From: a virus | Virus record (IMG/VR): IMGVR_UViG_3300029957_000012 | Location: 1-45,011 of that record | Reading direction: 5' to 3' (one strand) | Length of the DNA: 45,011 nt | Part shown: one piece after another, positions 7,493 to 45,011 of the stretch | How positions within the stretch are numbered: the first letter of the stretch is position 1 | Layout: each line of letters begins with the position of its first letter | The notes under the pieces: generated by a model | The model's input: only the letters and a program-made list of their open reading frames with translations | Databases searched by the model: none | What the model was told of the DNA's origin: nothing | Made by a program: the position numbers and the translations under genes

Positions 7493-7623
7493 TGATAACC
7501 TTGCAAGAAGCTTGGACAGCCAACCCGTTGCTCGTAGTCATCCCGTTCATCGGAACTGCACTCTGGATCTGGATTGCCCTCGTGATTGACCCTTACGACA
7601 CCCACGGAAGGCGACTTCGATGA
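7492..7623 (+). CDS. 43-residue single-pass membrane protein
   Basis: ATG 7492 overlaps the preceding TGA by one base, and the TGA at 7621-7623 overlaps the glycosyltransferase ATG (7620). The protein has a hydrophobic segment of about 22 residues (12-33, with two Trp) and a basic tail (His-Gly-Arg-Arg-Leu-Arg). The tail would sit in the cytoplasm by the positive-inside rule. The same size and coupling are seen for the membrane miniprotein at 557, although the two do not look homologous. Function unknown. Confidence 0.65.
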   Translation: MITLQEAWTANPLLVVIPFIGTALWIWIALVIDPYDTHGRRLR

Positions 7624-8696
7624 AGATCCTGATGACAGGGATGACCTCGAGGGGTATCGGCAGCCAGAAGCTAAAGCACGACTACGTGGCGCTGAGCGAC
7701 ATCCTCGCCAGGTCCCTAGTCGAGCTCGGGCACACCGTGGACATCGGCAGGGTAGACCCGCGCGAGGACCTGGACGAGTACGACGCTGCCCTCGTGCTAG
7801 TCTACTGGGTGTCCTCGCTGAGCTCCCACTACGTGCACGAGGCGTCCCTCGCCCTCTCGAAGCTGGGCAAGCGAGCCGCCGTCTACGTGGACGACTGGCG
7901 AGCCCAGACCCTCGCTGACGACTACTACAACCACGTCGAGAAGCCCATAGGGTGGTCGCGTCACCGCGATCGCTTCCGCAAGAACCTGTGGGATCAGCTG
8001 ACTCCGGAGGAGGTCGAGCTCGGCAGGGAGGCGCTCCTCTCGATGACGCGCCCGGACCCCGCATTCAGGATGCTCGTGCCGCTCCACCCGTGGGGAGACG
8101 AGGCGCTCTTTCATCAGAGCACGATCCGTCAGCTCACGACGAGGATCACGCCCATCGACCCCACGCCGATGGTCCCGCTGCCCGCGATCTCCCGCAGGCG
8201 TCCCGAGGAGCGCGACCGCAGATGGGTGCTGGCGAGCATCCAAGAGCACGACAAGTGGCTGCGAGACCTAAAGCCAGAGTGGCCCGTCCTGCAGTTGGGC
8301 GGTGCCAAGAAGCTCGGCGGGGGAGTCAACCCAGGCAGAGCGGAGATGGGCAAGGTTGTCCCCGAGGCACAGGTCGTGCAGGCGTACGCCGACTCCTGGG
8401 GGATGCTCGTCCCGCCCTACGCGTCCTCCGGGAGCGGGTGGTGGCGTCCTCGCTACACGTTCGCGGCGCATGCAGAGGCCGTCGTGCTCGCAGCGCCAGC
8501 TGACGCGGCTCGCCTAGGCGACCCGTTCCTCTACTCGCTAGACGAGGTCGAGCGCATGGAGGCGTCTTCCCTAGACGCCGTAGCCGCGTGGCAGAAGGCA
8601 CAGCACGACGCCCTCGCGTGGAGCAAAGAGCGCTTGCTAGAGACGCTCCAAGAGGTAGTCTCGGAGAGGGCCGCCTCCGGCAGGACGACCTCCTAG
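7620..8696 (+). CDS. GT-B fold glycosyltransferase, candidate DNA (hydroxymethylcytosine) glycosyltransferase
   Basis: 358 residues, ATG 7620 coupled to the upstream stop. The N-terminus (MKILMTGMTSRGIGS) is a typical GT-B first strand and Gly-rich loop. The C-terminal half holds a sugar-nucleotide domain pattern: a Pro-Pro-Tyr-x3-Gly-Ser-Gly-Trp-Trp-Arg-Pro-Arg-Tyr stretch near residues 263-278, then an Ala-rich helix. There is no signal peptide or membrane segment, so it acts in the cytoplasm. Its place in the replication half, away from virion genes, together with the dCMP hydroxymethylase at 39714, suggests DNA as acceptor. This is inference; a small-molecule or protein acceptor is possible. 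The glycosyltransferase fold itself is fairly well supported. Confidence 0.65.
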   Translation: MKILMTGMTSRGIGSQKLKHDYVALSDILARSLVELGHTVDIGRVDPREDLDEYDAALVLVYWVSSLSSHYVHEASLALSKLGKRAAVYVDDWRAQTLADDYYNHVEKPIGWSRHRDRFRKNLWDQLTPEEVELGREALLSMTRPDPAFRMLVPLHPWGDEALFHQSTIRQLTTRITPIDPTPMVPLPAISRRRPEERDRRWVLASIQEHDKWLRDLKPEWPVLQLGGAKKLGGGVNPGRAEMGKVVPEAQVVQAYADSWGMLVPPYASSGSGWWRPRYTFAAHAEAVVLAAPADAARLGDPFLYSLDEVERMEASSLDAVAAWQKAQHDALAWSKERLLETLQEVVSERAASGRTTS

Positions 8697-14308: not shown

Positions 14309-15133
14309 TTGCCGTACTTCGAGCACGACGAAGACCTCCCCGTCCTGGTCCAGGAGCTCCCCGAGGGCGAGCGCTGGGTGTACCGTCAGGTCTTCAATCA
14401 GATCTACCGGCGGTGGCGCGCCTACGGCCGGCACGACGAGGAGGCCTCCTACCTCGAGGCTGCTCGGCAGGCGGCGGAGGCCACCAAGATCCTCGAACGG
14501 CATCCCGTCGCAGGACGCGTCACGATCTCGAGGACGATCCACCGAGTGGTTCCTGAGCGAACCAGCCCTCAGGCCGAGATCTGGTGGGCGCAGTTCATGG
14601 AGCTGCACCCGGGGTGGAAGTTCCAGACCTGGCGAGACCCGCTCGACCCGCGCGTCTTCCCGATCACGTCGCCGTACTGGGAGCGCTGCGAGAACGGCGC
14701 TCAGCTGGCTGACCTGGTCAGGATGGAGGTCCTCCTCAAGTACGGAGGCTTCTACGTCGACTCGGACGTGCAGCCGCTGCGATCGTTCGAGCCGCTCGTC
14801 CGCCTCGGCGGAGTCGCCGCGTGGGAAGACGCGAAAGCGGTCCCGAACGCGGTCATGGGTTTCTCGGCCGGGCACCCCGCCCTCGCCGCAGTCCTTGACC
14901 TCTCCCTCGCGCGCGTACCCGGCCCGACCTGGTGGTCTGGAGTCGGCGCTTACACGGCGATCCTCCCGGCGCGCGCAGACGTCGAGCTGCTCAGCCCGAT
15001 GACGTTCTATCCTGTGCACTACAAGGACCCGGACAGGGAGCGGAAGCTCGCGGAGGCAGACGCGGAACGATACCCGCTGAGCTTCTCCGTCCACCACTAC
15101 GCGGGCAGCTGGCTCCGCAGGAAGGCATCGTGA
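14309..15133 (+). CDS. GT32-family glycosyltransferase
   Basis: 274 residues from TTG 14309 with AAAGGA at 14294-14299; no other start lies near. Residues 1-70 are helical and unlike the usual family start. From about residue 75 the sequence follows OCH1/capsule-type GT32 enzymes: Ile-His-Arg-Val-Val-Pro, a Trp-Arg-Asp-Pro motif, then the metal- and sugar-nucleotide-binding Asp151-Ser-Asp153 after GGFYV. The family transfers a sugar from a nucleotide donor. The acceptor is not known: host surface, virion protein or DNA are all possible. The catalytic part is closely related to the C-terminal half of 23834-25132. It shares its operon with the DNA methyltransferase, whose ATG overlaps its stop. 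Confidence 0.85.
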   Translation: MPYFEHDEDLPVLVQELPEGERWVYRQVFNQIYRRWRAYGRHDEEASYLEAARQAAEATKILERHPVAGRVTISRTIHRVVPERTSPQAEIWWAQFMELHPGWKFQTWRDPLDPRVFPITSPYWERCENGAQLADLVRMEVLLKYGGFYVDSDVQPLRSFEPLVRLGGVAAWEDAKAVPNAVMGFSAGHPALAAVLDLSLARVPGPTWWSGVGAYTAILPARADVELLSPMTFYPVHYKDPDRERKLAEADAERYPLSFSVHHYAGSWLRRKAS

Positions 15134-16800
15134 TGAAGGCAGTAGATGTCATGGGCTTCGCGGGGAGCATGGCCTGCGGAGTAGACCAGGCCGGCTTCGA
15201 TGTCGTGGCGAAGCGCGAGCCGTCCGCGTTCGGCGGGTTCGGCGTCGAGTCGCTCACGTACAACATGCCCTGGGTCGAGCCGCAGGTCGCCGACCAGGCC
15301 GATTGGGACCTCCCCGCTGACAAGGACATCGACTTCGTGTACGGCTGCCCGCCGTGCTCCGGCTTCAGCGCCCTGAGCATCATCAACGCGAAGGTCCACA
15401 GCAACTCGAAGGCGACGCTCTACGGCGCAGACGCCGACATCAACGAGTGCATGGGCTGGTTCGTGGACTACGCGGCGCGCGTCAAGCCTCCCGTCGCCGT
15501 CTTCGAGTCCGTCGGCCCCGCCTTCACGGTCGGGCGCGAGTGGATGGAGACGCTCTTCTATCGCCTCCGCGAGAAGTCGGGCCTCGACTACCAGCTGACC
15601 CACGTCAACATGGACGCGGGCCTGGTCGGCGGAGACGTGACACGCAAGCGATACTTCTTCGTCGCCCACCTCCAGCCGTTCGGCGTCGGCCTCGACTTCG
15701 TCTCGCCGCGATCGTTCATGGAGACGGTCGGCGACCTCGGAGACACGGAGCAGGGCGACTACGACTGGGGCCACTTCACGGACCCGGGCGCGGGCGTCGC
15801 GCGCACGAAGCGCACCATCGAGTGGCTCGAGGCGCAGGGTCGCGAGTGGAGGCCCGGGACGAGGCTTCCAGACAACCTCGAGCAGGACGAGAGCGGGCGC
15901 GTGATCGAACCCGCGCCTGACTTCTGGTACAAGAGCCGCCCGACCAAGTCGAAGCGGTACGGCGACGAGAACGGGATGTCTGACATCTTCAGCCACTGGT
16001 TCTCGACCGACGCCTTCAGCCCGCTGCGGTGGCGGCCCGACAAGCCGTTCGGTGTCGTGGTCGCGGCGACCCTCTTTCGCGCCGTCCACCCGGTGCAGGC
16101 GCGCAACCTGACCTACCGCGAGGCCGCGCGGTTCATGTCACTGCCGGACACCTGGTCGATGCGCGTCCTCACGGAGAAGAACAAACCCGCGGAGATCGGG
16201 AAGGCCATCCCAGCGGCGAGCGCCAAGTGGATCGCGCACTGGGCTAAGATGTCCCTCGAGGGGACGCCCGGAGAGTACGCTGGCAGGGACACCGCCGACC
16301 CGCTCATCCGCGTGATCACGGTCAATAGCAAGGGCTCGGTCGCCGAGATCATGAAGGGGAACGACGCCGACGCGTTCTACGCGGACGGCGAGTACTCTGA
16401 TCCCGACCCGAAGGTTTGGCTGATCGACCGCAAGTCCCGGCCCGCCCAGTGGTGGCAGCGGGATGACGAACTCGGGATCTTCTCGCGACCGGAAGCCTCG
16501 GCAGGCCGAAGCGTCTCCAAAACGCTTCGGGCAGGGTCGACACCTGCTCCGGTCGCCACTCAAGCGAGCGCCAAGGCTATTCCGGCGCGCTCCGCTAGCA
16601 AAGGCGCAGAACCAATCGCCCGCGTCCAGCCCGAGCAGGTAGTGGCTCTCTTGGAAGAACTCAACCTCTCCAAGGCGGACGCTGCCGCACGGCTCGGGGT
16701 ATCCCCGTCGCGTATCAACGAGCTGGTCACCAATACCCGCCCGAACAGCTGGCTCAACGCGAGTCGCTGGGAAGAAGTCCAGGCGGCGCTGCGTGGCTGA
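15133..16800 (+). CDS. C5-cytosine DNA methyltransferase with C-terminal helix-turn-helix
   Basis: 555 residues, ATG 15133 overlapping the previous stop. It shows motif I (GFAGSMACGVDQAGF), motif IV with the catalytic Cys75 (GCPPCSGFS), a motif VI with Glu125-Ser-Val in place of Glu-Asn-Val, a motif VIII core (TRKRYFFVA, about 169-177), and motifs IX/X (YREAARFMSLPDTW, then Gly-Lys-Ala-Ile-Pro). Residues 400-490 form a linker, and about 500-545 hold a helix-turn-helix (KADAAARLGVSPSRINELV). It would transfer a methyl group from AdoMet to C5 of cytosine, protecting phage DNA or changing gene expression. Motif VI and the extra domain are unusual. If cytosine is already hydroxymethylated, its target atom is blocked, so timing or chemistry may differ. 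Confidence 0.85.
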   Translation: MKAVDVMGFAGSMACGVDQAGFDVVAKREPSAFGGFGVESLTYNMPWVEPQVADQADWDLPADKDIDFVYGCPPCSGFSALSIINAKVHSNSKATLYGADADINECMGWFVDYAARVKPPVAVFESVGPAFTVGREWMETLFYRLREKSGLDYQLTHVNMDAGLVGGDVTRKRYFFVAHLQPFGVGLDFVSPRSFMETVGDLGDTEQGDYDWGHFTDPGAGVARTKRTIEWLEAQGREWRPGTRLPDNLEQDESGRVIEPAPDFWYKSRPTKSKRYGDENGMSDIFSHWFSTDAFSPLRWRPDKPFGVVVAATLFRAVHPVQARNLTYREAARFMSLPDTWSMRVLTEKNKPAEIGKAIPAASAKWIAHWAKMSLEGTPGEYAGRDTADPLIRVITVNSKGSVAEIMKGNDADAFYADGEYSDPDPKVWLIDRKSRPAQWWQRDDELGIFSRPEASAGRSVSKTLRAGSTPAPVATQASAKAIPARSASKGAEPIARVQPEQVVALLEELNLSKADAAARLGVSPSRINELVTNTRPNSWLNASRWEEVQAALRG

Positions 16801-36814: not shown

Positions 36815-37333
36815 ATGAACGACTGGCTTACCGACCTCAAGGCCCACGAACCCTGCACTGGGGGCTACCAGTGGGCACGAGACAACAACATCGCCTCTCT
36901 CGCCGAGGCGTTCGCCAAGCTCGAACGTGGCGACTGGTGGCTGTGGCTCGCCAGTGCGTATAAGGTCGAACTCGACAAGCCCCGACTCGTGACGTTCGCG
37001 GCCGACTGCGCCGAGCGCGCCCTGCCGAAGTTCGAGGACCGCTATCCCGATGACGCCCGACCCCGCAAGGCCATTGAGGCGGCCCGCGCATGTGTGACGT
37101 GTCCGTCGCCTGAGACTCGCGCCGCCGCCTACGCCGCCTCCGCCGTCGGCGCCGCCGCCTACGCCGCCGACGCCGCCGCCCGCGCCACCGACGCCGCCGA
37201 CGCCGCCGCCTACGCCGCCCACGCCGCCGACGCCGCCGCCTACGCCGCCCACGCCGCCGCCTACGCCGCCGAGCGTCAGTGGCAGGCGGACCGGCTCCGT
37301 GAGCTGTTCCCCGAGCACTCACGTCGTGCCTAG
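36815..37333 (+). CDS. Ala-repeat protein of the putative immunity protein (Imm-5-like) type
   Basis: 172 residues, ATG 36815 with GAGAGGAAC upstream. The N-terminal 95 residues (an early Pro-Cys-x3-Tyr-x-Trp, then Gly-Asp-Trp-Trp-Leu-Trp-Leu-Ala and Cys-Ala-Glu...Arg-Pro-Arg-Lys-Ala-Ile-Glu-Ala-Ala) are those of a family named putative immunity protein and found in phages and actinobacteria. Residues 103-160 are almost pure Ala with Tyr, Asp and His at regular places, encoded by GCC runs; this is a long helix of low complexity. The true role is unknown; I see no toxin beside it. It is first after promoter P6. Confidence 0.7.
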   Translation: MNDWLTDLKAHEPCTGGYQWARDNNIASLAEAFAKLERGDWWLWLASAYKVELDKPRLVTFAADCAERALPKFEDRYPDDARPRKAIEAARACVTCPSPETRAAAYAASAVGAAAYAADAAARATDAADAAAYAAHAADAAAYAAHAAAYAAERQWQADRLRELFPEHSRRA

Positions 37334-37400: not shown

Positions 37401-37847
37401 ATGGCCCAAGCACGTGAGCTATCCTCGAAGCAGGAGGCTGCGATCCGCGCGACGGCGCTCGAGGTCCAGCTCCCAGACGGGGTGACAGACGTCGCCTGCG
37501 TCTCGGAAGGAACTGTTGGCGAGCGGTTCACCAGCGGCGACTTCAAGGGAGTCGGCGGGTCAACCAAGTTCGGCGTCGCGTGGGTCGTCCGCGGGCGCGA
37601 GAAGTCAGAGCCGATCGCGCTGTACGACACCCCGCAGGAGGCGAGCGTACTCTTCGATCTCCTCACGGGACCGGAAGGAGAGCTATGGCACAGGAAGGAG
37701 CGTCGGAAGGCGCTGATCCAGGAACTCGAAGCGAAGGAGTCCGCGGAGGAGGCGGAGGCGAAGGCAACGCTGAAGGCGGCGAACGCCGGTGGCGCTGGCT
37801 CGAGTCGACCGAAGCGCTCCAGCGGGAGGCGTTCCGCTCGCCGGTAG
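37401..37847 (+). CDS. Protein of unknown function with basic low-complexity tail
   Basis: 148 residues, ATG 37401 with AGAAGGAGA upstream. Residues 1-95 look like a compact alpha/beta domain (Ala-Ile-Arg-Ala-Thr-Ala-Leu-Glu-Val, then Gly-Val-Ala-Trp-Val-Val-Arg strand). From about 95 the chain is Lys/Glu/Ala-rich and ends in Ser/Arg. The last 163 bases also encode the start of the next gene in another frame (37685). No family recognised. Confidence 0.7.
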   Translation: MAQARELSSKQEAAIRATALEVQLPDGVTDVACVSEGTVGERFTSGDFKGVGGSTKFGVAWVVRGREKSEPIALYDTPQEASVLFDLLTGPEGELWHRKERRKALIQELEAKESAEEAEAKATLKAANAGGAGSSRPKRSSGRRSARR

Positions 37848-38152
37848 ACGCGATCCGCGCGGATGACGCGCTGGTCGCGCAGTCACTCAAGGAGAACGTC
37901 CTCGCCGCGGTCATCGAGCTCGGAGAAGTCACGCGCGAGTTCTCGTGGAAGCCGTGGGCCCACGACGGGCCGTTCGTGAACCGTGAGCGAGTCATCGAGG
38001 AGCTCGTAGACGTCGCTCACTTCATCGGCAACATGCTCGTCAACCTCGACGCGGGCGACGACGAGTGGGAGCGCGAGTACCAGCAGAAGCAGCGAACCAA
38101 CCGACGGCGCCAGATCGTCGGCTACTCAGCCAGGAAAGGAGACCGGGGTTGA
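37685..38152 (+). CDS. Dimeric dUTPase/dCTPase-fold (MazG-like) nucleotide pyrophosphatase
   Basis: 155 residues from ATG 37685, which has a strong GGAAGGAGAG ribosome site; there is no other good start before the conserved core. Residues 1-35 are Gly/Glu-rich and overlap the upstream gene. The core has Glu78-x2-Glu81 (IELGEVTREF), a Trp-Lys-Pro-Trp motif, then Glu106-x2-Asp109 (EELVDVAHFIGNML), the metal-binding pattern of all-alpha NTP pyrophosphatases. The Trp-x-Pro-Trp and His-Phe-Ile-x-Asn signatures favour the dUTPase/dCTPase branch, to which T4 dCTPase belongs. It would cut dCTP or dUTP to the monophosphate. With the dCMP hydroxymethylase at 39714, dCTP is the attractive substrate. Substrate choice is inference. 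Confidence 0.7.
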   Translation: MAQEGASEGADPGTRSEGVRGGGGGEGNAEGGERRWRWLESTEALQREAFRSPVDAIRADDALVAQSLKENVLAAVIELGEVTREFSWKPWAHDGPFVNRERVIEELVDVAHFIGNMLVNLDAGDDEWEREYQQKQRTNRRRQIVGYSARKGDRG

Positions 38153-38628
38153 AGATCACGTACGAGTTCGACGGTCGTAAGACGACCGCCAGAGTAGAGG
38201 CGTCCGCGTGCGCCGGGGAGATCCTGACGCCGGGAACAATCGGCGTCGTCGGGAACGGCACGGCGACCGCCGAGCCGGGAGACGTCTTCGACTACACGGT
38301 CGGGCGGAAGATCGCTTCCGGTCGGGCCATCCAGGACTTCGGCGAGAAGCTCGAGCGACAGGGCCTCCTCGAGTCTCGCGCCGTCCCGAAGCAGAAGACT
38401 CCGCGCCCGGACTGGCAGCAGACCGCGACGTGGACTACCGCCGAGGGCGATGTCGTCCGCATCGGTCAGCTCGAAGACGAGCACCTCGTCAACATCATCA
38501 AGATGATCAGGCGCCGACCAGGAGCGGACCGCGTCCTCGCCACGCCCCTCGGGACAGCGCTCGGACTCGAAGTGACGCGCCGGTTCTTCGAGCAGCTCGA
38601 CCGCGTGATCGCGGACATCTGCCGATGA
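38149..38628 (+). CDS. Phage protein of unknown function
   Basis: 159 residues from TTG 38149, overlapping the previous stop (TTGA), with AAAGGAGA at 38134-38141. Residues 1-60 look like a beta-rich part. Near residues 100-120 is a motif of the type Gly-Gln-Leu-Glu-Asp-Glu-His-Leu-Val-Asn-Ile-Ile that I know from several phage proteins without known role. The C-terminus is helical. It lies between the pyrophosphatase and DUF4406 genes, so a role in nucleotide metabolism is possible but not shown. Confidence 0.65.
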   Translation: MKITYEFDGRKTTARVEASACAGEILTPGTIGVVGNGTATAEPGDVFDYTVGRKIASGRAIQDFGEKLERQGLLESRAVPKQKTPRPDWQQTATWTTAEGDVVRIGQLEDEHLVNIIKMIRRRPGADRVLATPLGTALGLEVTRRFFEQLDRVIADICR

Positions 38629-39074
38629 AGATCTACGTCGCGGGTCCGATGACGGGCATTCCCTCCTTCAACTTCCCGGCATTCGACGCGGCCGCCGCTC
38701 AGCTCCGCGACGACGGCCACGAGGTCGTCACTCCCTCGGAGATGGACGATCCCGAAGACCGCGCGAACGCGATGGCGTCACTCGACGGCCACTACATCGG
38801 GGGCGTCTCGCGCAACAAGACGTGGGGCGACTTCCTCGCGCGCGACGTGAAGCTCCTCGCGGACGAGGGCATCGACGCCGTGCGAGTCCTCCCCGGGTGG
38901 GAGCGATCGAGCGGCGCTCGCTTCGAGACGTTCGCGGCGATCGGCCTGAAGACCCCCGTCGAGCGACTCGACGGCACGCGCGTCAGCCTGGTCCAGCTCC
39001 TGATGGCGTGGACCGGCCTCTCGCGGTCTGGACTCATCGGCCTCGTGACTGGCACGAAGCAGGCGCGTCGATGA
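38625..39074 (+). CDS. DUF4406, nucleoside 2-deoxyribosyltransferase-like protein
   Basis: 149 residues from ATG 38625 (ATGA overlap). The start MKIYVAGPMTGIPSFNFPAF is the hallmark of DUF4406, related to nucleoside 2-deoxyribosyltransferases and to the nucleotide N-hydrolase DNPH1/Rcl. The Asn-Phe-Pro-Ala-Phe block and an Asp-Val-Lys-Leu-Leu segment (about 71-75) follow; the last 30 residues are a basic helix-turn-helix-like tail. The fold cleaves or transfers N-glycosidic bonds of deoxynucleotides. Here it may remove unwanted nucleotides or help to make modified ones. Confidence 0.8.
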   Translation: MKIYVAGPMTGIPSFNFPAFDAAAAQLRDDGHEVVTPSEMDDPEDRANAMASLDGHYIGGVSRNKTWGDFLARDVKLLADEGIDAVRVLPGWERSSGARFETFAAIGLKTPVERLDGTRVSLVQLLMAWTGLSRSGLIGLVTGTKQARR

Positions 39075-39646
39075 CGTGGCGTCGAAGGGGTCTCACGGGC
39101 GGGTCGACCGCCGACCTCCAGGCCGTCTCAGACGCCGTCGAGCGCGCCGATCTCCGTCGCGTGCGATCCTGCGAATGCCCGCCCGTGTGGCAGGGCATCC
39201 TGCCTCCCCCGTGTCGCGTGCATAACCCCTCGTCAGAGAGGACGATGACCACGACTACAACCTCGTTCGAGACATACGAGAGCAACCCCCTCCGGCAGCG
39301 ACAGGTCACGGGCGCCGTGAAAGACAACCTCGGAAAGTCTCGAGTCGACCTCCTCCCATTCGTCGTGCTCGTCGCTGTCGGGCGCGTCCTCGGCTTCGGG
39401 GCCGCGAAGTACAAGCCGAACAACTGGCGACTCGGGCTCTCGTGGAGCGACACGATCGCGTCCGCGCTGCGCCACATCTTCGCCTTCGCAGAGGGCGAGG
39501 ACATCGACTCTGAGTCGGGCCAGATGCACGTGGACAACGCGATCGCTCAGCTCATGTTCCTGAGCCACTACTGGCACACCCGTACGGGAAAGGATGACCG
39601 CTGGTCATCCCTCCCCGCCGAGGAGAAGGAGCAGTCGAAGGCATGA
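39071..39646 (+). CDS. DUF5664 (dATP/dGTP diphosphohydrolase N-terminal type) protein with zinc-like N-terminus
   Basis: 191 residues from ATG 39071 (ATGA overlap). The core from about residue 75 (Lys-Asp-Asn-Leu-Gly-Lys-Ser-Arg-Val-Asp-Leu-Leu-Pro, Gly-Ala-Ala-Lys-Tyr, Asn-Asn-Trp-Arg, Ala-Leu-Arg-His-Ile) is the common phage DUF5664 domain, linked by name to dATP/dGTP diphosphohydrolases. The first 58 residues hold Cys-x-Cys-Pro-Pro...Pro-Pro-Pro-Cys-x2-His, a zinc-ribbon-like motif. A later ATG at 39245 would give the core alone, with only GAGAGGAC very close to it. I prefer the coupled start. It probably acts on deoxynucleotides. Confidence 0.75.
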   Translation: MTWRRRGLTGGSTADLQAVSDAVERADLRRVRSCECPPVWQGILPPPCRVHNPSSERTMTTTTTSFETYESNPLRQRQVTGAVKDNLGKSRVDLLPFVVLVAVGRVLGFGAAKYKPNNWRLGLSWSDTIASALRHIFAFAEGEDIDSESGQMHVDNAIAQLMFLSHYWHTRTGKDDRWSSLPAEEKEQSKA

Positions 39647-39717
39647 CAGACCTCATATGGGTAGCCATTCTCTTCATCGTCATGTTCTGGGCGCTCGCCC
39701 CGAAGACGCGCCGATGA
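39643..39717 (+). CDS. 24-residue membrane miniprotein
   Basis: ATG 39643 overlaps the upstream TGA, and the TGA at 39715-39717 overlaps the next ATG (39714). The peptide is one hydrophobic helix (Leu-Ile-Trp-Val-Ala-Ile-Leu-Phe-Ile-Val-Met-Phe-Trp) with Pro-Lys-Thr-Arg-Arg at the end. Without it, the 67-base gap in this fully overlapping operon would be unexplained. It may matter only as a translation bridge, or be a true membrane peptide. Confidence 0.55.
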   Translation: MTDLIWVAILFIVMFWALAPKTRR

Positions 39718-40553
39718 AGACGTACTCGACGCTCAGCGAGGCGTGGGTCCTCGAGCTCGCGCACACTCGGGCGTTCGGCGAGGAGTTCGCTCCTCGAGGC
39801 CAGGCGACCATCGAGACGCGGTGGTCTCAGTTCGCGATCGACCGCCCGCTCACCTTCCCGGTCCGCGCCGAGGGCCGGGAGTTCAGGAACGTCATCGGCA
39901 TCCTCGAGGCGCTGTCGCTGGTCGGCCAGTTCAGCGTCCCCGAACTGTTCACTGACCGCGTTCGCAAGTTCCTTGACTTCGAGGACGCAGGCGTCTTCCA
40001 CGGGTCGTACGGCGCTCGCATCGCGGGTCGGCTCGGCGACCTCGTGGACTTGCTGAAACGCGATCCCGACTCGCGCCAGGCGGTGCTCACGATCTTCGAC
40101 TCGAGGTCAGACCTCGGCGCTGCCAAGCGCGACATCCCGTGCACCATCGCGATCCACTTCTTGGTCCGCGACGGGGAGCTCGAGATGCGTGTCACGATGC
40201 GCTCCAACGACCTCTGGCTGGGCACGCCGTATGACCTGCTCCAGTTCGCGGTCCTGCAGGCCAGCGTCGCGCAGGCGCTCGGTCTCGTGCCCGGGAAGTA
40301 CGTCCACGCGGCCGGCTCCCTCCACCTCTACGAGCGGGACTTCGGCCCCGCCTCGAAGATAGGCGAGCCGCTCAACTACGCGGAGTTTCCGTTCCCGCTG
40401 TGGTCTCCCGACATGACGGACATCGGGATGATCAGTCAGCGCGCTCGAGACCTCGCGTTCAACCGCGTCCACCCCGATACCGCCTTCGAGCACTGGGTCC
40501 ACGAGCTGGTCTGGCCCGAGGGTACCTGGTTCCCGGGGATGTCGCCGGCGTGA
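39714..40553 (+). CDS. dCMP hydroxymethylase (thymidylate synthase fold)
   Basis: 279 residues from ATG 39714. The thymidylate synthase core is clear: Arg in DPDSRQ, catalytic Cys143 (IPCTIAIHF), Arg163-Ser-Asn-Asp166, Gly-Thr-Pro-Tyr173-Asp174 and His204-Leu-Tyr206. Asp174 stands where dUMP-specific enzymes have Asn (E. coli Asn177). T4 dCMP hydroxymethylase has Asp here, so the substrate is probably dCMP. The one-carbon donor would be methylene-tetrahydrofolate. The N-terminal 80 residues differ from thymidylate synthases. The product would be 5-hydroxymethyl-dCMP; a dCMP methylase giving 5-methyl-dCMP is the main alternative. It lies in one operon with the dCTPase-like gene. Confidence 0.8.
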   Translation: MKTYSTLSEAWVLELAHTRAFGEEFAPRGQATIETRWSQFAIDRPLTFPVRAEGREFRNVIGILEALSLVGQFSVPELFTDRVRKFLDFEDAGVFHGSYGARIAGRLGDLVDLLKRDPDSRQAVLTIFDSRSDLGAAKRDIPCTIAIHFLVRDGELEMRVTMRSNDLWLGTPYDLLQFAVLQASVAQALGLVPGKYVHAAGSLHLYERDFGPASKIGEPLNYAEFPFPLWSPDMTDIGMISQRARDLAFNRVHPDTAFEHWVHELVWPEGTWFPGMSPA

Positions 40554-40975
40554 GACGCCTCATCATCGTGGGCGAGGCCCCAGGGAAGATCGGCATCTCG
40601 CCGACCCTCCCGGGCCTCGCCCTCACGGGCAACACGGGTCGCCACCTCGCCGACATCGCGGGGTGGCCGTTCGGCCTCTACCTGGCGCAGGTGGACAGGC
40701 GCAACCTGTTCTACGACGTTCAGCCGAAGTGGGATGTCGAGAAGGCGCGCGCCGCGGCGCGCAGGCTGGAGGCCTCCTTCTCGGGCGACAAGGTCATCCT
40801 GATGGGGACCCGAGTAGCCGAGGCGTTCGGCGCGATCGACCGCCCGCTCTACGAGTGGTGGGGAGATCACTACTGCAACTTCGCGCGTATCCCGCACACG
40901 TCCGGGCGCAACCGCGTGTGGAACGATCCCGCCGAACGAGCGCGCGCTCGTGCGTTCCTGAAGCCGCTGATATGA
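40550..40975 (+). CDS. Uracil-DNA glycosylase superfamily-like protein
   Basis: 141 residues from GTG 40550 (GTGA overlap). It starts with Ile-Ile-Val-Gly-Glu-Ala-Pro-Gly-Lys (about 4-12), the usual first motif of family 4/5-type glycosylases and relatives. It has a strand Val-Ile-Leu-Met-Gly-Thr-Arg-Val-Ala near 82-90 and ends with Ile-Pro-His-Thr-Ser-Gly-Arg-Asn-Arg-x-Trp-Asn (about 113-124), the leucine-loop-like motif of this fold. No Fe-S cysteine set is seen. It may cut an unwanted base or sense modified nucleotides. A related domain appears at the N-terminus of the polymerase. Confidence 0.7.
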   Translation: MRRLIIVGEAPGKIGISPTLPGLALTGNTGRHLADIAGWPFGLYLAQVDRRNLFYDVQPKWDVEKARAAARRLEASFSGDKVILMGTRVAEAFGAIDRPLYEWWGDHYCNFARIPHTSGRNRVWNDPAERARARAFLKPLI

Positions 40976-42498
40976 CGCGCGTCGAAGGCGAGGACTTCGT
41001 CATCGAGTCGTCGCGCGGCAAGGAGCTCAAGCAGGCCGGCGCTCGGTGGGACCCGCGCCTCAAGGCGTGGAAGCTCGCCGCGACGAGGATGAACTGGATC
41101 ATCCTCGCAGAGCTCGAGCTCGCCAACGTCTGGGACGACCCAGCGGCGCGCCCGTCTCCTCCCGAGATAACGGACGAGCGGCTGCTCCCGCACCAGCGAC
41201 GAGCCGTAGAGCGCCTCGTGCAGGCGCGCCACGGCGAGCTCAAGGCGGTCTTCCCGGGAGGCGGGAAGACGTTCATCGCCGTCGCTGCAGCCGATCTCTC
41301 GGTGCCCGACGATCGCGTGGTAGTCGTCGCGCCTGCCTCCCTCCTGAAGACCTGGGAGGCCGAGATCCGGAAGTGGCAGCGAGTCCCGGGCGACGTGTAC
41401 GTGGTCCAGGGGAAGCTCGACTACGATCGCGCTCGAGACGCGCGCTGGATCGTGATGTCGTGGGACAAGATGACGCGCGAGGCCGACTCCTTCGGGATCG
41501 GCTGGCCCGTCCTCGTCCTGGACGAGAGCGTGCTCGCAAAGTCGCGCGGGTCGAAGCGTTTCAAGACGCTGCAGAAGATCCGTCGCGGGTTCGCGCGCGT
41601 GTGGCTGCTCAGCGGCTCGCCGACCACGCGCTATCCAGACGACCTCTGGACTCAGCTCCACGTCATCTGGCCGCGCGCGTTCCCGTCCTACTGGCGGTTC
41701 GCCGAGCGGTACTGCACCGTCGAGGAGACGCCGTGGGCACGGATCGTGACGGGCGCTCGCGCCGGTCGCAACGCCGCCGAGGAGAACTCCGACCTCATCG
41801 ACGTGGTCACCGAGGATGACGCCGGCCTCGACCTACCCGAGTACCTGTTCGAGCCGCCCGTACTGACCGACATGCGGCCGAAGCAGGCGCGCGCCTACAG
41901 GTCGATGGCCAAGGACTTCATCGCCGAGCTCGGTGACGGCACGCAGGTCGTCTCGGCCAACGAGGCCGCGAAGCTCACCCGCCTGCAGCAGATCGCATCC
42001 TGGTGGGACGGCGAGTCCGGGAAGCACGACGCGGTCGCCGACCTGATCCGATCGTTCGAGCCGCCGTACCTGATCTGGACGCACTGGAGGGACGGCGCGC
42101 AGGCTCTCCGGGACCGCCTTGAGGACATCGGAGTCGACGCGCGACTCGTGAACGGCGGTACGCGCGACCGCGACGAGGAGGAGTGGCTCGCCGCGTTCAA
42201 GGCGGGCACGCTCGAGGCGCTCGTCCTGTCGCTCGGCGTCGGGAAGTTCGGGCACACGTTCACGAAGACCCGGACGATCATCGGCGTGGATCGCACCTTC
42301 ATGGCGGACGACCTCTACCAGTCGTCCTTCCGCGTTCGCCGCATCGGGCTCGAGCACCGCCCCGTCTGGGTGCCCGTGGTCGCGGCAGGGACCGTAGACG
42401 AGCTGACCGTCGGCGACAACATCGAGGCGAAGCTGACCAGCATCTCCAAGATCACGCGAGCAGACCTCGCGTCACTGCTGAAAGGGATGGGACGTTGA
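40972..42498 (+). CDS. SNF2/SSL2-type superfamily 2 helicase
   Basis: 508 residues from ATG 40972 (ATGA overlap). A small N-terminal domain (1-60, Lys-Gln-Ala-Gly-Ala-Arg-Trp-Asp-Pro-Arg-Leu-Lys-Ala-Trp) precedes the helicase core: His-Gln-Arg-Arg-Ala-Val (Q-like motif), Walker A Gly-Gly-Gly-Lys99-Thr100, motif II Asp184-Glu-Ser (not DEAH), motif III Leu-Ser-Gly-Ser-Pro-Thr, and motifs V/VI (Ser-Leu-Gly-Val-Gly-Lys...Ser-Ser-Phe-Arg-Val-Arg-Arg-Ile-Gly). Phages use such helicases in recombination-dependent replication and repair. It sits next to the resolvase gene, which fits branch processing. Confidence 0.9.
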   Translation: MTRVEGEDFVIESSRGKELKQAGARWDPRLKAWKLAATRMNWIILAELELANVWDDPAARPSPPEITDERLLPHQRRAVERLVQARHGELKAVFPGGGKTFIAVAAADLSVPDDRVVVVAPASLLKTWEAEIRKWQRVPGDVYVVQGKLDYDRARDARWIVMSWDKMTREADSFGIGWPVLVLDESVLAKSRGSKRFKTLQKIRRGFARVWLLSGSPTTRYPDDLWTQLHVIWPRAFPSYWRFAERYCTVEETPWARIVTGARAGRNAAEENSDLIDVVTEDDAGLDLPEYLFEPPVLTDMRPKQARAYRSMAKDFIAELGDGTQVVSANEAAKLTRLQQIASWWDGESGKHDAVADLIRSFEPPYLIWTHWRDGAQALRDRLEDIGVDARLVNGGTRDRDEEEWLAAFKAGTLEALVLSLGVGKFGHTFTKTRTIIGVDRTFMADDLYQSSFRVRRIGLEHRPVWVPVVAAGTVDELTVGDNIEAKLTSISKITRADLASLLKGMGR

Positions 42499-42923
42499 AA
42501 AAACACTTCTGGCTGGCGATCGACCCGGGCATCACTACGGGGTGGGCCCTCCTAGACGACGCTGGAGAGATCCAGGCCACGTCCGTCTGGGGAACGGCTG
42601 AGCTCAAGCAGTCGCTCGACATCCTGATCCGCGAGGCGCACTTCGCGGGGTACTCGCTCACGATGGTGATCGAGACGATGCCATCTGCCGGGCGCATGGG
42701 AGCGCTGGGTCAGAAACTCGAAGCCGTGAGGCGCGACATCATGTCGATCGTCGCGGAGACGTACGAGATCCCGTATGTCTCAGTCATGCCGGGCGAGTGG
42801 AAGCCGTCGAGGATCGCGAAGACGACGCGCGTGCCGTCTCGGTTCCGCGACACCCCGCTGATGGTCCATCAGAAGGACGCCGTGAAGATGGGCAGATATG
42901 TCATCGAGAAAGTCCGAAGATAA
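42495..42923 (+). CDS. RuvC-like Holliday junction resolvase
   Basis: 142 residues from TTG 42495 (TTGA overlap). The RNase H-like fold is shown by Ile-Asp10-Pro-Gly-Ile-Thr-Thr-Gly-Trp-Ala, then Val-Ile-Glu60, and His-Gln-Lys-Asp128-Ala near the end. These acidic residues would bind the metals. The enzyme cuts four-way junctions made by recombination. It overlaps the helicase gene. It is the last gene of this operon; the stop TAA is followed at once by promoter P4. Confidence 0.8.
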   Translation: MKKHFWLAIDPGITTGWALLDDAGEIQATSVWGTAELKQSLDILIREAHFAGYSLTMVIETMPSAGRMGALGQKLEAVRRDIMSIVAETYEIPYVSVMPGEWKPSRIAKTTRVPSRFRDTPLMVHQKDAVKMGRYVIEKVRR

Positions 42924-43828: not shown

Positions 43829-44113
43829 TTGACGCACAAGGTACTCGCAACAAGACGGTTCATGATCTCACTCACAGGATCGACTGACGACCGTCTTGAA
43901 GCAGTCTTCAACCTCGTAATGAAGAACGATAGGAAGCACACACTGGCGATCCGGTCTGCAGAGATCGCTCTTCGAGGTAATCGAAGTACGCTCGAGATTA
44001 CAGGCGAATACACTGCCAAGGGCGCGTGGGAGTCAGATCTCACCCGGCGCTTCGTTCGCGCTTGTGCGAAGATTGGATGCGGGGCGCGTGTGCGCCTTGA
44101 GTACTTTCGCTGA
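43829..44113 (+). CDS. Small protein, less GC-rich than its neighbours
   Basis: 94 residues from TTG 43829, with AGGAGG just upstream (43817-43823). A basic, beta-alpha-beta-like protein (Lys-Val-Leu-Ala-Thr-Arg-Arg-Phe-Met-Ile-Ser-Leu start; Arg-Ser-Ala-Glu-Ile-Ala-Leu helix; Val-Arg-Leu-Glu-Tyr end). Its codons end in A or T far more often than those of the genes around it, which suggests a recent arrival. No family recognised. The stop overlaps the nuclease ATG by one base. Confidence 0.7.
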   Translation: MTHKVLATRRFMISLTGSTDDRLEAVFNLVMKNDRKHTLAIRSAEIALRGNRSTLEITGEYTAKGAWESDLTRRFVRACAKIGCGARVRLEYFR

Positions 44114-45011
44114 TGCCAACTGAGTCCACGGGCCAGGAGCACCTGACCCCCGTCAAGATCAAGTCGACCTCGGCGACCGAGCGCGGCGGGTTCAGGAAGT
44201 GCCGTCGCTCCTGGTTTTTGACGGTCGTCCACAGACTCGACGCTCAGGACGGGAACGTCAACTTCTTCCTCGGGACGATCTACCACCGGGCGCTCGAGGC
44301 GTACTACCGCGCGCAGATGGCGGGCCTCCCCGACGACGATCGCGACCTCGCCGCGCTCGACGCCTACCAGGACGCCTACGACGAGTACATGGCTCGGCTC
44401 GCGAGTCAGCTCGGGGCGCTGTGGACGTACGGCGAGCAGGGCTTCCGCGAGGCCGGCGAGCTGGGCATGGAGATGCTCCAGAACTACCTCGAGCGCGAGC
44501 GACGAGACCCGCTCCTAGACCACGTAAACGCGGTGGAGTTCCGAGTCAACGTACCTGTCCCGCATCCGGTTACGGGTCGCAAGGCGGGCGTCCTGAGCGT
44601 CCAGGCGGACGCCGTCGGGACGAAGGACGGCCTCCTCTCGGTCGCGGACCACAAGACCGCGTCGAGCAACGTGTCGTCCGCGCACCTCGACCTGGACGAT
44701 CAGCTAACCGCTGAGGTCTACGCCTGGTGGAAGGACTCCGGGGAGTTCCCGGAACAAGCGATCTACAACGTCTCGCTGAAGAAGGCGCCGCATGCGCCGA
44801 AGGAGCTCCAGCCCGACAAGAAGACCGGGAAGCGGAAGCTCTCGAAGGCCAAGAACCAGGTCACGACCTACGCGCTGTACCGCGGTGAGATCACGCTCCT
44901 CGGACTGGACGTGGCGGACTACACCGACTTCCTCGTGTTCCTCAAGGAGCGCGAAGAGAACGGCGAGGACGCGCTGTTCCGGCGCGAGGCGACGTTCCGC
45001 ACGCCCGACCA
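44113..45011 (+). CDS. PD-(D/E)XK nuclease (RecB/Cas4-like), N-terminal part
   Basis: ATG 44113; the frame is open to the window end and continues at base 3 to stop at 335 (367 residues in all). Seen: Cys30 in FRKCRRSW, His in Tyr-His-Arg-Ala-Leu-Glu-Ala (about 57-63), Asp166 in Gln-Ala-Asp-Ala-Val, the Asp179-His-Lys181 of the PD-(D/E)XK core, and Asp-Asp-Gln-Leu-Thr-Ala-Glu-Val-Tyr (motif QxxxY type, about 196-204). With the three C-terminal Cys this is the AddB/Cas4 layout with a 4Fe-4S cluster. It would resect ends to make single strands for the Sak4-like protein. Its transcript leads to the operon at 343. Confidence 0.9.
   Translation, partial: MPTESTGQEHLTPVKIKSTSATERGGFRKCRRSWFLTVVHRLDAQDGNVNFFLGTIYHRALEAYYRAQMAGLPDDDRDLAALDAYQDAYDEYMARLASQLGALWTYGEQGFREAGELGMEMLQNYLERERRDPLLDHVNAVEFRVNVPVPHPVTGRKAGVLSVQADAVGTKDGLLSVADHKTASSNVSSAHLDLDDQLTAEVYAWWKDSGEFPEQAIYNVSLKKAPHAPKELQPDKKTGKRKLSKAKNQVTTYALYRGEITLLGLDVADYTDFLVFLKEREENGEDALFRREATFRTPD
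44882..45011. repeat. Right copy of terminal direct repeat
   Basis: This copy matches 1-130 except A at 45008 instead of C at 127. That change would turn an Ala codon into an Asp codon; it may be a sequencing error at the contig end or real variation. Confidence 0.9.

Follow-up and report, generated by a model that had tools for sequence, protein, structure and literature searches.

The best-known carriers of glycosylated 5-hydroxymethylcytosine (hmC) are the T4-like phages that infect enteric bacteria. In MilA, Asp186 decides for cytosine, and Ser and Arg replacing Ala176 and Lys133 decide for deoxyribose (PMC5175136). T4 dCMP hydroxymethylase (dCH) carries a unique polar residue, Asp145, three positions before its nucleophile (PMC6400193), and Asp in the thymidylate synthase (TS) fold was established by MetaGPA as a marker of cytosine-modified contigs (PMC8670742). 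In C5-cytosine-methyltransferases (C5-MTases), positions Q82 and N304 of the HhaI enzyme belong to motifs common to all members and gate bulky groups (PMC10666283).

The DNA analysed here (the window) is the whole 45,011-nt viral record IMGVR_UViG_3300029957_000012. The phage probably replaces the cytosine of its DNA by glycosylated hmC, with a C5-MTase homologue at 15133 acting in the same pathway. We base this reading on the genes present, their coupling, active-site residues, the fold of a glycosyltransferase (GT) and co-inheritance across phages. A run of nine coupled genes and a 24-aa ORF, with 4-nt overlaps between them, extends over positions 37685-42923:

37685..38152, + strand: predicted dCTPase-type all-alpha NTP pyrophosphohydrolase, dUTPase_2/MazG superfamily (PF08761, 8.9e-11)
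38149..38628, + strand: operon protein with a weakly Rv2632c-like N-terminal part (PF08962, 5.8e-5, below cut-off; 4-nt coupled)
38625..39074, + strand: DUF4406, nucleoside 2-deoxyribosyltransferase-like (PF14359, 1.4e-17; phrog_355, 4e-25)
39071..39646, + strand: DUF5664 MazG-like dNTP pyrophosphohydrolase (PF18909, 1.1e-27; phrog_801, 1.6e-34)
39643..39717, + strand: 24-aa membrane-peptide ORF MTDLIWVAILFIVMFWALAPKTRR between DUF5664 and TS (from sequence; ATGA overlap on either side)
39714..40553, + strand: predicted TS-fold dCMP 5-hydroxymethylase (PF00303, 9.5e-20; best PDB relative MilA)
40550..40975, + strand: UDG-superfamily-like protein (PF03167, 0.0041, below cut-off; phrog_12275, 2e-20)
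40972..42498, + strand: SNF2 helicase of the replication cluster (PF00176, 3e-13; phrog_62, 2.3e-81)
42495..42923, + strand: RuvC-like resolvase, end of the coupled run (phrog_1770, 6.1e-7)

All four ORFs singled out by the sequence-only reading (37685, 38625, 39071 and 39714) lie where it had placed them and have Pfam matches, and the coupled starts it described correspond to 4-nt stop/start overlaps, seen at 38149, 38625, 39071, 39643, 39714, 40550, 40972 and 42495. Its notion of one operon stands for the coupling of the dCTPase, DUF4406, DUF5664 and TS genes, but the pathway is not confined to it: the wider module includes the C5-MTase homologue (15133), coupled to a GT-A enzyme (14309), which that reading does not mention. 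An independent IMG/VR phage (L234) has dCTPase, DUF4406, DUF5664 and TS in the same order, its TS and DUF5664 being 64% and 62% identical, respectively, to those of the window. Both DUF4406 and DUF5664 are missing from most of the wider family, and any direct part of theirs in the modification pathway is hypothetical; the DUF4406 protein is a possible nucleotide N-glycosidase. The current name of PF18909, formerly DUF5664, is dATP/dGTP diphosphohydrolase N-term, and the gene starts either at 39071 (coupled) or at an ATG with a Shine-Dalgarno sequence at 39245, just upstream of the conserved domain. A possible function of the UDG-like protein is repair of deaminated bases; its homologue adjoins the GT-B gene in ctIqW946. 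Sequence search of the PDB returned no relatives of the DUF4406, DUF5664 or UDG-like proteins.

The ATG at 37685 is preceded by a good ribosome-binding site. The ORF shares 163 nt with the one upstream (37401-37847); a low-complexity N-terminal stretch precedes its conserved domain, which starts inside the ORF. The protein shows the fold and motif of the all-alpha NTP pyrophosphohydrolase superfamily. Its PDB matches are weak and comprise dimeric dUTPases, the nearest solved relatives, and human dCTP pyrophosphatase, and the MazG/dUTPase genes that neighbour the C5-MTase gene in DSL-LC01, Sixama, GMA2 and GodonK are 37-45% identical to it. We predict that this enzyme removes dCTP, the dCTP specificity being suggested by context: a dCTPase-like gene lies near the C5-MTase homologue in 113 of 127 loci, in 107 of them at less than 3 kb.

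Residues of the TS-fold enzyme 39714 agree with all published determinants of a dCMP hydroxymethylase, which is its predicted function. Of the solved structures, the CMP hydroxymethylase MilA gives the best profile match (2.8e-45), ahead of the best true TS at 5.5e-27. Among 124 aligned sequences E65, R121, D140, C143, T144, S164, D174, H204 and Y206 are conserved. The catalytic pair C143 and E65 (T4 Cys148 and Glu60) is invariant (124/124), and so are the deoxyribose residues S164 and R121 (Ala176 and Lys133 in MilA; 124/124). D140, three residues before the Cys (T4 Asp145, Leu in TS), occurs in 123/124. The dCMP-type Asp already recognized from the sequence is D174 (T4 Asp179, E. coli TS Asn177), present in all 124; Asp also occupies the base position in 33/33 TS sequences from the long GT-B and C5-MTase records and phage Kurnik.

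Three further genes of interest lie outside the coupled run:

7620..8696, + strand: GT-B glycosyltransferase with a T4 beta-glucosyltransferase (BGT)-like fold (AF2 pLDDT 90.2; 1qkj, E 1.5e-6)
14309..15133, + strand: GT-A glycosyltransferase (DXD, Gly_transf_sug) coupled to 15133 (PF04488, 9e-10; TGATG junction)
15133..16800, + strand: Lys-type C5-MTase homologue (PPCS, ESV, GK) with a C-terminal HTH (PF00145, 9.1e-13)

The earlier GT-B call at 7620 has no Pfam support (no match up to E 1), yet the structure model agrees with it. T4 BGT takes Foldseek PDB ranks 1-3, headed by 1qkj, in a match at the level of fold only (14% identity, TM 0.53), the fold being common to many GT-B enzymes. Sequence search of the PDB with 7620 retrieved no BGT and thus gives no membership in GT63. 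From the model we predict that 7620 is an hmC-DNA glycosyltransferase. Relatives of the GT-A enzyme 14309 are found only in Mycobacterium phage GT clusters, and its role in DNA modification is uncertain.

The ends of the contig share a common 130-bp repeat (99%), and a Cas4-like ORF spans the end-to-end junction. The contig is therefore circular and the genome complete, so that a kinase for hydroxymethyl-dCMP (hm-dCMP) is truly absent; the earlier remark that no such kinase is visible holds for the entire closed genome. Profiles made from relatives detected in the window no kinase, dCMP deaminase, WhiB, pyrimidine-dimer glycosylase or UDP-galactopyranose mutase.

From these observations we infer the catalytic steps, the sugar and the part of the C5 homologue as follows. 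The dCTPase-type enzyme 37685 would break dCTP down to dCMP, which 39714 would convert, with methylene-tetrahydrofolate, to hm-dCMP. A host kinase would then supply hm-dCTP, the phage genome having no such kinase, and the phage PolA (2144) would build it into DNA. The BGT-fold enzyme 7620 would put a sugar on the hydroxymethyl group in DNA, and 15133, in the same pathway, might contribute one more, optional reaction on cytosine or hmC.

Distribution of these genes was compared across phages, where many records represent related phages, so that the following counts overstate independent events: TS is present in 19/19 long records with the GT-B family of 7620, Asp-type TS in 13/17 long records with the C5-MTase homologue (the four TS-less contigs end in the replication cluster, ahead of the usual TS position), and of 50,697 phage-database records 17 carry GT-B and 16 the C5 homologue, with 14 carrying both. 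The toolkit and the C5-MTase homologue travel together in numerous phages whose hosts are high-GC bacteria of soil and water. Cultured relatives include Gordonia phages GMA2, Sixama and GodonK and Micrococcus phage Kurnik. The expectation that such a pathway would be notable in a phage of this type was not upheld, the pathway being widespread in actinophages, cultured Gordonia phages included. In the literature searched we found no report of modified DNA for these Gordonia or Micrococcus phages; since the cultured relatives exist, the chemistry is directly testable.

Two other explanations concern 39714. The enzyme could methylate dCMP instead, as its counterpart in phage Xp12 does, so that C is replaced by 5-methylcytosine, with the GT serving virion or cell-surface glycans or similar. 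In an engineered TS one Asp substitution suffices for 5-methyl-dCMP (PMC8670742), and surface-glycan GTs are numerous in actinophages. We nevertheless consider a methylase very unlikely: D140 is the counterpart of the hydroxymethylase-specific Asp145 of T4 dCH, the nearest solved relative is a hydroxymethylase, and the aligned homologues of 39714 lack a conserved TS-type C-terminal tail. Moreover, TS accompanies GT-B in every long record, the GT fold is closest to a DNA glucosyltransferase, and a methyl group has no hydroxyl to glycosylate. It is barely credible that hmC arises after replication by a C5-MTase and a TET/JBP oxygenase, 39714 being an ordinary thymidylate synthase. Phage systems of C5-MTase, TET and GT are known, reportedly from Burke et al. 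2021, but 39714 has Asp174, not Asn, and this route was rejected, since PF12851 (Tet_JBP) gave no match above cut-off in any of 43 records, the window included. Synthesis of hm-dCMP by dCTPase and dCMP hydroxymethylase with subsequent DNA glycosylation, as first proposed in the sequence-only reading, is the best reading at the level of sequence and fold.

Two further explanations concern 15133. The catalytic PPC Cys, motif VI Glu and motif VIII Arg (two Arg in all) are kept in 127/127 C5-MTase homologues, HaeIII methylase and DNMT1 head the PDB relatives, and stand-alone protective methylases are frequent in phages; 15133 could thus possibly be an ordinary sequence-specific methylase, unrelated to the hydroxymethyl pathway, that guards residual unmodified cytosines. 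Against this, PCQ is replaced by PC[S/A] in 127/127, ENV by E[C/S/T]V with loss of Asn in every aligned homologue, and the motif-X Asn (GN) by Lys or Arg (G[K/R]) in all 124 aligned at the site (K357 in the window); among these are the Q82 and N304 sites that gate bulky groups (PMC10666283). At most loci the family also has the dCTPase gene as a close neighbour; it tracks Asp-type TS and has no relatives in 84,980 GTDB bacterial and archaeal species genomes (scan with a narrow pattern; 31 matches, all unrelated). A CmoX-like carboxymethyltransferase making 5-carboxymethylcytosine from carboxy-SAM is unlikely. The basic residue at the HhaI N304 site recalls CmoX Arg350 and engineered M.MpeI N374K (PMC12783734), and the fold matches of 15133 include CmoX (8yf3), but the defining SPPC and Arg are replaced mostly by [C/N]PPC and Lys in the family (CPPC and K357 in the window), the cofactor-making CmoA (TIGR00740) was missing from all 43 records searched, including the window, and the partners are TS and GTs, with no amide ligase. 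With CmoA absent and neither Arg nor SPPC in 15133, the carboxy-SAM route was rejected.

The C5-MTase homologues apparently form a phage-specific family with an intact catalytic site and a rebuilt pocket for the transferable group, and the altered pocket of 15133 suggests extra DNA chemistry of a new kind. Complete replacement of C by hmC would leave a normal C5-MTase without substrate, so that either some C must stay unreplaced or 15133 has another activity. Tentatively, the Lys-type homologue might represent a new DNA-modifying class that acts on hmC or adds a non-methyl group to cytosine. This would amount to a two-handle cytosine chemistry, in which the hydroxymethyl group of the TS route is joined by a second C5 reaction using the conserved Cys and a repositioned Lys. 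The Klimasauskas group has reportedly found that C5-MTases derivatise hmC with thiols in vitro, a reaction of which the phage enzyme would be the counterpart in nature.

Glycosylated hmC is thus predicted for a large group of actinophages, cultured Gordonia phages among them, via a distinct family of BGT-fold enzymes. Such DNA modification bears on restriction, CRISPR and phage engineering, and the C5-MTase homologues are a concrete starting point in the search for a new DNA base as well as a new labelling enzyme.

The window shares with T4 (gp56, gp42, gp1, beta-GT) the common logic of dCTPase, dCMP hydroxymethylase and post-replicative BGT-fold GT, as well as active-site residues of the hydroxymethylase. 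Unlike T4, it has no phage hm-dCMP kinase, its TS is closest by sequence to MilA among solved structures, its GT has no detectable sequence similarity to BGT, and it adds the C5-MTase homologue, DUF4406 and DUF5664 in a 45-kb actinophage-like genome. MilA, from mildiomycin biosynthesis, has the Asp and catalytic Cys in common with 39714, but with Ala176 and Lys133 it prefers ribo-CMP, whereas 39714 has the Ser and Arg of the deoxy type. The CmoX/CmoA/CmoY system (Yang et al. 2025, PMC12783734) resembles the window in a C5-MTase homologue with a basic residue for HhaI N304; 15133 differs by Lys instead of Arg, by lack of SPPC and CmoA, and by its TS, dCTPase and GT partners. The uncultured 5hmC phages of MetaGPA (TS N177D; Yang et al. 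2021, PMC8670742) also combine Asp-type TS with a pyrophosphohydrolase; in place of their carbamoyltransferase, not found in the window, the latter has the BGT-fold GT and the Lys-type C5-MTase. Among the closest relatives, the Gordonia phages and the Actinomycetia phage DSL-LC01 have a kinase-like gene adjoining TS (annotated in the Gordonia phages), these phages and Kurnik all have a dCMP deaminase, and DSL-LC01 also has a UDP-galactopyranose mutase, none of which occurs in the window. GT-B is present in the Gordonia phages and DSL-LC01, Kurnik having other GTs instead. Asp-type TS, dCTPase/MazG and the Lys-type C5-MTase are shared by GMA2, Sixama, GodonK, DSL-LC01, Kurnik and the window alike.

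The four ORFs which the sequence-only reading had grouped into a cytosine hypermodification operon are all present and match the expected families (PF08761 dUTPase_2, DUF4406, PF18909, formerly DUF5664, and PF00303), with PHROGs concurring. Their coupled starts were borne out by 4-nt overlaps, but the extent of coupling had been understated: nine genes and a 24-aa membrane-peptide ORF, all joined by stop-start overlaps of this length, run through 37685-42923 in the order dCTPase-type, unknown, DUF4406, DUF5664, TM peptide, TS-fold, UDG-like, SNF2 helicase and RuvC-like.

36815-37333, putative Imm-5-like immunity protein, Ala-rich (PF21805, 2.9e-12), immediately upstream of the operon
38625-39074, DUF4406 protein, nucleoside 2-deoxyribosyltransferase-like
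39643-39717, 24-aa single-TM peptide ORF, ATGA-coupled to the DUF5664 gene and to the TS gene
39714-40553, TS-fold enzyme, MilA-like
40550-40975, UDG-superfamily-like protein, coupled to the TS gene

The two contig ends share a 130-bp repeat (99% identical) and a Cas4-like ORF spans their junction (44101-45009 and 3-332); therefore, the 45-kb record represents a closed, essentially complete genome. On the circular map, Sak4, PolA, primase and the glycosyltransferase gene 7620 lie downstream of the operon. Its nearest relative, IMGVR_UViG_3300050029_000153, combines dCTPase-DUF4406-DUF5664-TS with two GT-B genes. The sole other homologue of the UDG-like protein among the loci compared is located beside the GT-B gene of phage ctIqW946 (L002, 10572-10970).

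The best solved relative of the TS-fold enzyme 39714 is the CMP 5-hydroxymethylase MilA (profile E 2.8e-45 vs 5.5e-27 for the best thymidylate synthase), which also came top in a single-sequence search. Published dCMP hydroxymethylase determinants were scored on 124 aligned homologues. The nucleophile C143 and E65 are invariant, and the dCMP-type Asp proposed earlier is indeed there as the cytosine-specifying D174, Asp in 124/124 and in all 33 TS sequences from GT-B or C5-homologue records and phage Kurnik. S164 and R121 are deoxyribose-type residues; in MilA, Ala176 and Lys133 stand where deoxyribose-type enzymes have Ser and Arg (PMC5175136). D140, kept in 123/124, is equivalent to the hydroxymethylase-specific Asp145 of T4 dCMP hydroxymethylase (PMC6400193). 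The two positions best associated with cytosine-modified contigs in MetaGPA, the Asp and the residue after the nucleophile (PMC8670742), are Asp and Thr in 124/124. We thus predict 39714 to be a dCMP hydroxymethylase, as strongly as sequence allows. Its DUF4406 neighbour recalls mildiomycin biosynthesis, where MilA is paired with the nucleotide N-glycosidase MilB.

In the proposed pathway, 37685 would convert dCTP to dCMP and 39714 would convert dCMP to hm-dCMP, to be phosphorylated by host kinases. As the earlier reading had remarked for hydroxymethyl-dCMP, no phage kinase is found in the closed genome, whereas in cultured Gordonia relatives and Actinomycetia phage DSL-LC01 a kinase-like gene adjoins TS. 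PolA would then incorporate the phosphorylated nucleotide and 7620 would glycosylate it in DNA, with an optional step by the C5 enzyme 15133. At a guess, the UDG-like protein could remove deamination products and the DUF4406 protein could hydrolyse unwanted nucleotides.

The 7620 protein has no Pfam match and no sequence relative in PDB, and its relatives are encoded in only 17 of 50,697 phage records (Gordonia phages, DSL-LC01, two Manatee Spring records and one distant phage). Its AlphaFold2 model, built from 35 window and IMG/VR sequences (pLDDT 90.2), retrieved T4 beta-glucosyltransferase at ranks 1-3 in PDB (best E 1.5e-6). This upholds the original GT-B call and points to a predicted DNA glycosyltransferase on fold evidence that does not rest on gene context. 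Since some relatives encode UDP-galactopyranose mutase (PF03275) between two GT-B genes (L003, 34324-35421; L027, 6215-7306), galactofuranose is a candidate sugar, and galactofuranosyl-5-hydroxymethylcytosine is possible in these relatives; the window carries no such mutase gene.

While these parts proved real, one gene had been overlooked: 15133, a C5-METHYLTRANSFERASE homologue (PF00145, 9.1e-13) coupled to the GT-A gene 14309. Sixteen phage records encode a relative of it, and in 14 of these the phage also has the GT-B. IMG/VR scans gave 383 GT-B, at least 239 C5-homologue and at least 588 TS loci. When whole records no shorter than 40 kb are counted, which come from related phages and are not independent events, TS accompanies GT-B in 19/19 and the C5 homologue in 13/17; the other four (L094, L103, L108, L144) are contigs that stop inside the replication cluster, short of the TS site in complete relatives. 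The C5 homologue is present in 8/19 GT-B records, and GT-B in 7/17 C5-homologue records. Records without GT-B often carry in its stead genes for another glycosyltransferase, a nucleotidyltransferase or an epimerase. In Micrococcus phage Kurnik the set recurs, with other glycosyltransferases. Of the 127 C5-homologue loci, 113 have a dCTPase-type gene, which lies no more than 3 kb away in 107 of them. A search of the operon's nearest relative, a 42.6-kb record, revealed no C5 homologue.

Around these genes, GT-B (42%) directly adjoins the C5 homologue (54%) on the 8-kb contig IMGVR_UViG_3300037119_001218. Pyrimidine-dimer DNA glycosylase (PF03013), absent in the window, regularly follows the C5 homologue (L003, 39706-40212, and about 70 other loci). 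Phage relatives of the GT-A enzyme (14309-15133) come from Mycobacterium phages Phrappuccino and prophiGD91-2, where they belong to clusters of several glycosyltransferase genes.

By structure comparison, the C5 homologue has a normal C5-MTase fold, and its family (n=127) shows no variation at the catalytic PPC cysteine, the motif VI glutamate or the two motif VIII arginines. PC[S/A] replaces PCQ, E[C/S/T]V replaces ENV, and the motif-X Asn position, in a register checked against HaeIII, holds Lys in 121 and Arg in 3 of 124 sequences aligned there; at the motif II acid position, 81 sequences have Thr and 40, the window protein among them, have Glu. In M.HhaI, shortening the Gln and the motif-X Asn allows bulky groups to be accepted (PMC10666283). 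If 5-hydroxymethylcytosine mostly replaces cytosine, little substrate would be left for a normal methylase. We tentatively consider that the enzyme may act on 5-hydroxymethylcytosine or transfer a non-methyl group, which would be new chemistry; about equally likely, it is an ordinary methylase working on residual cytosine. CmoX uses an Arg at the motif-X Asn position to bind carboxy-SAM, and engineered M.MpeI N374K does likewise with its Lys (PMC12783734), but by its definition the family is not CmoX: it has Lys instead of Arg, the window protein lacks SPPC, and CmoA is absent from 43/43 records searched.

A pathway of this kind is already known from T4 and MetaGPA phages. The novelty lies in the prediction that it is widespread among actinophages, where it comes with a separate family of T4 beta-glucosyltransferase fold, and in its association with a Lys-type C5-MTase family, potentially a new part of the predicted pathway.
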